Below, piece by piece: positions 22,632 to 25,379 of a DNA stretch of 45,171 nt. Each line of letters starts with the position of its first letter. Within the stretch, counting starts at the first letter, position 1. Source of the DNA: an uncultured Verrucomicrobia subdivision 3 bacterium (GTDB lineage Bacteria; Verrucomicrobiota; Verrucomicrobiia; Limisphaerales; UBA11358). The notes beneath the pieces were generated by a model. That model did not search any database. It was not told the DNA's origin and saw only the letters and a program-made list of their open reading frames with translations. The stretch covers positions 1-45,171 of the forward strand of contig CAIQEI010000173.1 in NCBI GenBank assembly GCA_903870815.1. The letters are read 5' to 3'. The translations under genes were made by a program, and so were the position numbers.

Positions 22632-23561
22632 TCAAGGCTCGGCCAGAATGGCCGCCCGCTGTTCATGATATTGTTCCGGGGTCAATAGATCGTTTTTGTA
22701 AAGGGCCAGGATCCGATCCAGCTTTTGTTCCTTGGTCATGCTGACGGGCAGTGCCGGGGCGGTGATCGGTTGTGCAAGCAGGACCTTGGGCGGAGCCGTG
22801 GTCGTGACGGGCGCTTGGGGGGTGGTTGCCGGACTGCCTTCCAGTTCCTGCATCTTTTGTTGCATCGCCATCCGGGCGGCGGACTGTGCGGGAGTATCCC
22901 CGGCCGGCAGAGTCTCGGCGGCAGCGGGCGCCGATGTCGTGGTTGCGACGGGAGCGGCGGCGGGGGGAGTTTCGGTTGTGGTGGATGCGGCGTTGGTTGC
23001 GTCCGGAGCCATGGTAACTGCGGCGGGAGTTGCTGCGGCGGGCGCAGTATCTGCGGAGGCAGGGGGTTCGGTGGTGGCGGGCGCGTTGTTCGTTGTGTCC
23101 GCCGCCGTTGTTGCAGTAGTTGTTGCGGCCGCTGGCGTTTCGGTTGTTGGTGCCGGAGTCCCCGCTTCCGCCGGTGCAGTGGTCGCGGGCGCGCTGTTTG
23201 CGGGTGCGGTAGTTTCGGTTGCCGCAGGTGCGGTGTTGGTCGCGTCTGGAGCCGCAGTGTCTGCGGCGGGAGTTGCGGTCGTTTGGGTTTCAGCGGCTGG
23301 TGCGGGAGTTGCGGCTGCGGCCGAAGCAGTGGCTGCCGGAGCCGCCGTCACGGGGGCGGTGTCAGCGGGCGCGGGCTTAGTCGGTGCGGCTGTCGGAGCG
23401 GCTGTCGGAGCGGTTGCCGCTGAAGGGTTATCAAGTTGCTGCATTTTCTCGGCCAAGGCCGCCCGCGCGGCGGCTTGGGCGGCGGTGTCCTGGGCGTGGA
23501 GAGTTATGCTGCCGCCCAAGGCCAAGGCGCAAAGCCAGAGGGGGAATTTTGGAATCTGCAT
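22632..23561 (-). CDS. Secreted Ala/Thr/Pro-rich protein with C-terminal SHOCT-like motif
   Basis: 309 aa. A signal peptide ends near ITLHAQ (residue ~24). Two similar helical segments (AAQAAARAALAEKMQQLDN and PAQSAARMAMQQKMQELEG) flank an Ala/Thr/Pro-rich linker of about 180 residues that is probably disordered and wall- or envelope-spanning. The last 35 residues (KEQKLDRILALYKNDLLTPE ... ) resemble the SHOCT oligomerisation motif. A terminator follows. No function can be assigned. The plus-strand open frame over the same DNA is a composition artefact. Confidence 0.7.
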   Translation of the reverse strand: MQIPKFPLWLCALALGGSITLHAQDTAAQAAARAALAEKMQQLDNPSAATAPTAAPTAAPTKPAPADTAPVTAAPAATASAAAATPAPAAETQTTATPAADTAAPDATNTAPAATETTAPANSAPATTAPAEAGTPAPTTETPAAATTTATTAADTTNNAPATTEPPASADTAPAAATPAAVTMAPDATNAASTTTETPPAAAPVATTTSAPAAAETLPAGDTPAQSAARMAMQQKMQELEGSPATTPQAPVTTTAPPKVLLAQPITAPALPVSMTKEQKLDRILALYKNDLLTPEQYHEQRAAILAEP

Positions 23562-24599: not shown

Positions 24600-24752
24600 C
24601 TGTGGCCGTAGAATAAAACTTTCCGCCGGCCAAGCCAGCTAAAGTCATCACCCGACGACGCCCGGTCCGGCGTTGACGCCGTGTTTGCCGCCAACGACGC
24701 TGCCAACCTGCGCCCGGACTTGATTTCATGACCCAAAAAATTGGACTCTTTT

Positions 24753-25005
24753 AGAAATCAATTACTCTCTCGGAAGGACTTTTTAGGCCCATTGAAGATC
24801 TAATTAGTTCTTCAATCTCACTTTTAACGTGCAATACAGAACAAATAAGTTCTTTAAAAGCCATTTTTATGGCAAATAAAGAACTAAAAAGTTCTTAAAA
24901 AGTGCATTTTCGATTATATATAGAACTAATTAGTTCTTCAAAAACACCTTTTACACTCGATACCAAACTAATTACTACTGGATTCAGCTTGCATCGCGGT
25001 GGAAA
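24753..25005. repeat. AT-rich array of six 42-bp units with a 16-bp palindrome
   Basis: Units start at 24753 (43 bp, degenerate), 24796, 24838, 24880, 24922 and 24964 (only its first 16 bp similar). Each begins with a version of the palindrome AGAACTAATTAGTTCT, perfect at 24922; all units except the last also keep a T-tract 28-31 bases in. The remaining ~20 bases vary but are AT-rich. The spacing is exactly 42 bp for the last five units, four turns of B-DNA. G+C is roughly 30%, against ~60% around it. Likely an operator array for the adjacent HTH protein; an iteron-like role is an alternative. See findings. Confidence 0.9.
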
Positions 25006-25025
25006 TTGCCCAATTTGTTGAGGAA

Positions 25026-25379
25026 ATGAGCGATTCCATTCCCGAAACATCCGGCGGCGGGGCTTCCGGCTCCGCCGAAAACCTGCCGAAGCTCAACCCC
25101 GTGGCGGTGCTGCTCGCCCTGGGCAGCGACGTGCGGCTCGCCATCATGAAACAGCTCGCCGCCGGCCGGACCCTGAACGTCAGGGAGGCCACCGCGCTGT
25201 TCAAGCAGACGCCCGAAAGTGTCGGCAAGCATCTGAAAGTGTTGCGCGCCGCCGGCGTGGTGGATTGGAACCCGGGAGCCGACCGGCGACAATCGGTGTT
25301 CAGCATTCCCGCCGCGCGCCGGCCCGCGCCGGGCCTCCTTGACTACGGCTTCTGTGTGATTGATCTGAACAAGCTGTGA
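25026..25379 (+). CDS. ArsR-like winged helix-turn-helix regulator
   Basis: 117 aa from ATG 25026; a GTG at 24999 is an in-frame alternative. Residues ~25-95 form a winged HTH: DVRLAIMKQLAAG (helix), EATALFKQTPESVGKHLKVL (recognition helix), RAAGVVDWNPGADRRQSVFSI (wing). There is no metal-binding CxC motif of classical ArsR sensors, so the inducer is unknown. The tail PGLLDYGFCVIDL is distinctive. GAGG lies only two bases from the ATG, so translation may be inefficient. The gene lies at the end of the 42-bp palindrome array and is the natural candidate to bind it. Confidence 0.8.
   Translation: MSDSIPETSGGGASGSAENLPKLNPVAVLLALGSDVRLAIMKQLAAGRTLNVREATALFKQTPESVGKHLKVLRAAGVVDWNPGADRRQSVFSIPAARRPAPGLLDYGFCVIDLNKL

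Follow-up and report, generated by a model that had tools for sequence, protein, structure and literature searches.

Several described systems resemble parts of the locus studied here. ArsR proteins in many cases recognise a palindromic site in the promoter of their own gene, and plasmid replication iterons are direct repeats about two helical turns apart that are bound by winged-helix initiators; the omega repressor is a ribbon-helix-helix protein. The type III partition system TubRC of Bacillus plasmids combines a small winged-helix protein with direct repeats 5' of its own operon, autorepression and a filament, and in omega/parS of pSM19035 a small regulator is bound to 7 to 10 short repeats that overlap promoters, the number of repeats setting the affinity (PMC5016525). 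IMEs and CIMEs reside at the 3' ends of housekeeping genes (including guaA), where they form direct repeats with the gene end and where several elements accrete per site (PMC5704250). Prokaryotic satellites and REP arrays are described as tandem non-coding intergenic repeats (PMC6749651; PMC3733652), and a text search of the satellite survey PMC6749651 returned no mention of Verrucomicrobia or "21 bp". By analogy, TubRC and omega/parS would come closest to our locus in working, and IMEs at gene 3' ends in mobility. The open-access literature that we searched contained no description of a phased array coupled to a winged-helix gene in this layout.

The window, i.e. the whole stretch of 45,171 nucleotides that was analysed, encodes a winged-helix protein with the same Pfam family and fold as the ArsR/SmtB autorepressors CzrA, SmtB, HlyU and RexT. 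Those autorepressors have one or two operators, whereas the family described here has 4 to 12 or more units per array in strict helical phase, and the window protein, unlike them, has no CxC metal motif and carries a conserved C-terminal D[YF]G[FH]C strand. It differs from TubRC in that the family is chromosomal with many different paralogues, has a period of 21/42 bp and lacks TubZ; Pfam found no tubulin domain in five window proteins, including those of both flanking genes. Omega/parS is plasmid-borne with one sequence for all arrays, whereas here each gene has an array sequence of its own. Compared with iteron origins there is neither origin nor Rep at the locus, only a 117-aa regulator with no plasmid match. 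Satellites and REP arrays are largely sequence families, while the present arrays differ in sequence and have only the period in common, and type III toxin-antitoxin systems (ToxIN-like) are unlike them in that our arrays have no general RNA fold signal, a promoter below the array and no Rfam match.

The core array (24796..24937) consists of four 16-bp palindromes, AGAACTAATTAGTTCT or close variants, starting at 24796, 24838, 24880 and 24922 and thus spaced by 42 bp; neither this feature nor the repeat elements that follow are assigned to a strand. The array is thus real, as an earlier note on this DNA had described it. That note had also listed a unit at 24964 in the same series and a degenerate one at 24753; at 24964 and about 24754 units are present but degenerate: a weak, AGAAATCAATTACTCT-like one at 24754..24769, where the periodicity z remains high (24676-25054), and a promoter-proximal one, CAAACTAATTACTACT, at 24964..24979. 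At up to 3 mismatches AGAACTAATTAGTTCT has 4 matches in the window, all within the array (0.05 expected from dinucleotide shuffles), and at up to 2 mismatches it has none outside the array in the whole 3.17-Mb MAG. The autocorrelation of the upstream 400 bp is maximal at lag 42 (z 9.7), a height that no block shuffle reached. The T-tract and the halved G+C reported earlier were both borne out, with TTTT at 24822, 24864, 24907 and 24949 (24822..24952) and a G+C of 0.24-0.29 across the array against ~0.59 in the surroundings. Since palindrome centre and T-tract are ~21 bp apart, the 42-bp unit can be described as two elements at 21-bp distance, and the column information of 42-bp arrays in the family has a 21-bp harmonic as well (z 5.4). 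Tandem Repeats Finder missed the array because its units are too diverged.

The adjoining ArsR-like gene (25026..25379, + strand) encodes 117 aa, MSDSIPETS...LLDYGFCVIDLNKL, and most likely starts at ATG 25026 rather than at GTG 24999, as its relatives align at 25026. The product matches Pfam HTH_20/HTH_5 above the gathering scores, and its predicted model (mean pLDDT 83) has a fold similar to CzrA, HlyU and RexT (Z ~11). Against the NCBI HTH_metalloreg model it scores 36.4 bits, which is below the cut-off of 55. TubR is absent among the listed fold matches, an absence that proves nothing. A -35-like TTGCAT lies 37 bp 5' of the ATG (24989..24994, + strand), forming with a weak -10 a candidate leaderless promoter. 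Family-wide, TTG occurs at -36 from the ATG in 20 of 58 loci, compared with an average of 2.4 expected per position; a -35 box at this distance places the transcript start at the ATG, and the messages of the family are therefore probably leaderless, with an array that abuts the promoter and ends where it begins. The array had been thought to run up to the start of the gene; it stops ~45 bp before ATG 25026, just upstream of TTGCAT. Such a position fits upstream activation and equally repression by filament extension. Array and start codon have no fixed phase to each other between loci (Rayleigh p 0.83 and 0.2).

Homologues were collected at the genus, order and phylum levels, giving 80 loci, 75 of them scorable; the named records are MAGs of Limisphaerales / Verrucomicrobia subdivision 3. 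These genomes are mostly fragmented, neighbour calls based on ORFs are heuristic, and homologue start codons were assigned by rule, not on evidence. The earlier note had named a lack of arrays at homologous HTH genes as what would refute it, and this check came out in its favour: upstream of 60 of the 75 scorable homologues a tandem array was found, with a period of 21, 42 or 63 bp and its own sequence in each case. The period statistic was based on local shuffles and, 21 and 42 being multiples of three, coding stretches were checked via open frames; periods of 41, 43 or 44 occur at four loci of other lineages. No array is present at seven LDLGCC-type relatives, which form one clade on the protein tree, or at a few further homologues (L128, L135, L166). 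Array architecture tracks protein clade: in a clade of 31 short-wing proteins (GRGRLYQIP...GHCLLRL) the arrays are essentially 21-bp and head-to-tail, and most homologues outside it have 42-bp arrays. In the array registers the cores are retained and the other columns vary; a 10.5-bp contact pattern is weak in the columns of 21-bp arrays (z 2.5) and absent from those of 42-bp arrays.

The sequences of the arrays also follow those of the proteins. Similarity between arrays correlates with similarity between recognition helices (Mantel p = 0.0002), and does so after scaffold similarity is removed (p 0.0002); the partial correlation is modest (r 0.165), and among pairs of distant proteins the correlation is almost gone (0.08). 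Two proteins of different families, L188 and L191, share the helix DFDGVSK at a scaffold similarity of 0.42 and have related arrays (similarity 0.48). In 7 of 8 pairs of orthologous arrays the high-information columns are the better conserved ones (e.g. 0.77 vs 0.40), and paralogous arrays of one genome are as dissimilar as arrays from different genomes. One 42-bp motif of a relative, G018, is confined to its own array at 0-1 mismatches. Also in this genome, two convergent genes enclose an orphan array of 42-bp period, TTGCAACGGTTGCAA (L303:2000-2376, G018:C28), which resembles the array of the paralogous HTH gene L161 and is a candidate relic or second target of L161; array privacy is accordingly not absolute.

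The earlier note had also proposed a control region of a mobile element, and this has partial support in that array and gene appear to behave as a small mobile cassette in at least six loci. At L124, L138, L145, L146, L121 and L195 the 3' end of the upstream gene is repeated behind the HTH gene, at L138 including its terminator, in likeness to the direct repeats that IMEs and CIMEs form with the target gene end. L145 and L146 are near relatives in one genome that lie behind different genes, one of metallo-beta-lactamase fold and one with a PurQ-like C-terminus, and their DNA similarity extends from the upstream stop codon to just past the HTH gene. In G017 and G063 a gap of 77 to 102 bp separates the metallo-beta-lactamase-fold gene from yajQ, and in G003 and G016 the two genes have the array+HTH unit between them, which amounts to presence and absence at one locus. 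L146 has three copies of the purQ-like end, with a HigBA-like pair between the second and the third. An extra truncated purQ-like 3' end, 580-830 bp downstream, was present in 8 of the 36 genus genomes with the sequence (L293-L299 and L146; G001, G026, G061, G027, G017, G035, G005 and G025), which makes this gene end a hotspot. HicAB-like, HigBA-like or DUF4160/DUF2442-like pairs, names given by eye and not by family search, lie between the copies, which indicates an insertion site common to array+HTH units and to such toxin-antitoxin-like pairs. In contrast to IMEs and CIMEs the cassettes are ~0.7-kb units with a single gene, the HTH gene beside its array, and no recombinase or integrase of their own. 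At the window's own locus no flanking duplication of a gene 3' end was found. Squalene synthase and the radical-SAM gene were not adjacent in any of 29 relatives, and without such an empty site the insertion could not be dated.

The idea that arrays are tied exclusively to the HTH family was disproved by control sampling of G018. In 400 kb of that genome ~30 periodic stretches were found, ~25 of which are 21/41/42-bp arrays without an adjoining gene of the HTH family (L324-L343); nearly all differ in sequence, most lie 5' of genes, and 1 of 20 is between convergent genes, compared with 17% of gene pairs. No more than 13 further periodic stretches, counting every kind, were seen in the 515 kb flanking HTH loci, ~5 of them 21/41/42-like. 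In 459 kb (14%) of the window's genome there are three non-coding arrays, namely the studied one, a phased array 5' of a small orphan gene, MPFDPTKPVEDSPL..., with no Pfam match (L344:3130-3487), and another with no clear partner gene (L346:8632-9157). One shared family of G+C-rich, CCGCTTTTGCAAAAAGCGGAC-like palindromic 21-bp arrays occupies intergenic DNA of two genomes with no HTH gene nearby (L198:2100-2380, L199:1440-1760, L200:1820-2090). Arrays at unrelated genes and orphan arrays imply that an array does not need an HTH protein beside it. Thus the arrays are a wider phenomenon of which the HTH family is the most regular case, and the private arrays at unrelated genes had been overlooked in the earlier note.

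With moderate confidence, we interpret the array as a private, cooperative autoregulatory operator of the adjoining winged-helix protein, with array and gene co-evolving and handed on as a cassette. Protein dimers would bind every 21 bp, palindrome and T-tract elements alternating to give the 42-bp unit, with every dimer on the same DNA face and binding probably cooperative, and the bound array would control the gene's own leaderless promoter, which begins at the array end. Changes in the recognition helix would be followed by changes in the array, with its spacing staying at two or four helical turns, and the array+gene unit would be passed on as a small cassette able to settle behind the stop codons of unrelated genes. 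The arrays with their period and family-wide occurrence, the covariation with the protein, the lack of a coding or RNA signal, the promoter position and, in some loci, the flanking duplications are what the sequences show, while binding, cooperativity, autoregulation and its sign, and the mechanism of movement are what we infer; the earlier suggestions of one-face dimer binding and of a role beyond simple autoregulation are plausible but unproven.

The arrays could instead be 21-bp minisatellites, now degenerate, that build up in intergenic DNA with promoters; the helical period would persist because changes close to a promoter are tolerated only in whole turns, and the adjoining protein would be irrelevant. 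This explanation would account for arrays with their own sequences 5' of unrelated genes in G018 and the window's genome, as well as for the variable phase to the gene start. We nevertheless hold it to be unlikely, as the link to the HTH family, at 80%, greatly exceeds the background elsewhere, arrays go with the protein both in type and in sequence, columns are conserved between species, and a sister clade is without arrays. Less probable still is a silencing platform from which the protein polymerises over its neighbours like a xenogeneic-silencer filament, here including the divergent squalene/phytoene synthase gene. Its appeal lies in the studied locus, where a long phased array of low G+C is placed between divergent promoters; yet many arrays of the family are not AT-rich, upstream of many homologues lies the end of a co-directional gene instead of a divergent promoter, and the neighbours are not conserved: no neighbour gene recurs generally, and no neighbour family is common to most HTH loci.

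It has also been considered that the array is an accessory site for recombination and the protein an excision or integration factor for the cassette. Cassettes do sit between duplicated gene 3' ends, and winged-helix directionality factors such as RdfS are described as oligomerising on DNA (PMC11963761); however, the unit has no integrase, and array-free toxin-antitoxin-like pairs between the same purQ copies indicate that arrays are not needed for insertion there, which makes this role improbable. A TubRC-like centromere, in which the winged-helix protein and iterons partition DNA, is in our view very improbable, and the partition role suggested in the earlier note was not sustained: no TubZ/ParA-type gene lies immediately beside the HTH gene, one chromosome carries several paralogues with different arrays, and no relative of the window protein was found in plasmid and phage records, nor in viral contigs searched with sub-family alignment A2. 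We give least credence to repeats that function at the RNA level (type III toxin-antitoxin or CRISPR-like) or belong to a coding repeat. The studied array does fold well (z -3.9), as would any inverted repeat, and 42-bp arrays have a mean fold z of -1.4 to -1.5, as expected of inverted repeats, but 21-bp arrays have no fold signal (mean z ~ -0.5), Rfam returned nothing at gathering thresholds (one sub-threshold chance match), and the promoter is downstream of the array. Similarly, an open frame is present in 25 of the 60 arrays, but the other 35 have none in any of the six frames, and periods of 41, 43 and 44 occur too; the arrays are neither coding nor RNA-structured.

If the private-operator reading is true, these loci constitute a large natural library of regulator-operator pairs with one fold and one geometry, in which the recognition code of ArsR-type helices would be directly testable. 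It would also mean that a single small gene is served by 4 to 12 or more exactly phased operators, a layout that ordinary autoregulation does not need, and that this layout is tied to tiny cassettes trafficking at the 3' ends of genes, a traffic that carries toxin-antitoxin-like pairs as well. More tentatively, these genomes may contain arrays of a general class, each private to its locus and helically phased, with conservation of the two-turn period and not of the sequence. Winged-helix genes would then be the best-resolved case, mobile modules of one regulator and one private array that diversify by co-evolution, and the other arrays would serve further small cassette genes or cognate regulators encoded elsewhere. 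The wider question is why private two-turn arrays are so numerous in some Verrucomicrobiota genomes, up to a couple of hundred if the sampled stretches are extrapolated. Periodic DNA of other kinds was also seen. The window's genome has a run of 7-bp repeats, TTCGATG (L307:1240-1555, G000:C13), and positions 22632-23561 of the window encode an Ala/Thr/Pro-rich, low-complexity and probably exported protein whose DNA has a periodicity of 15 bp.
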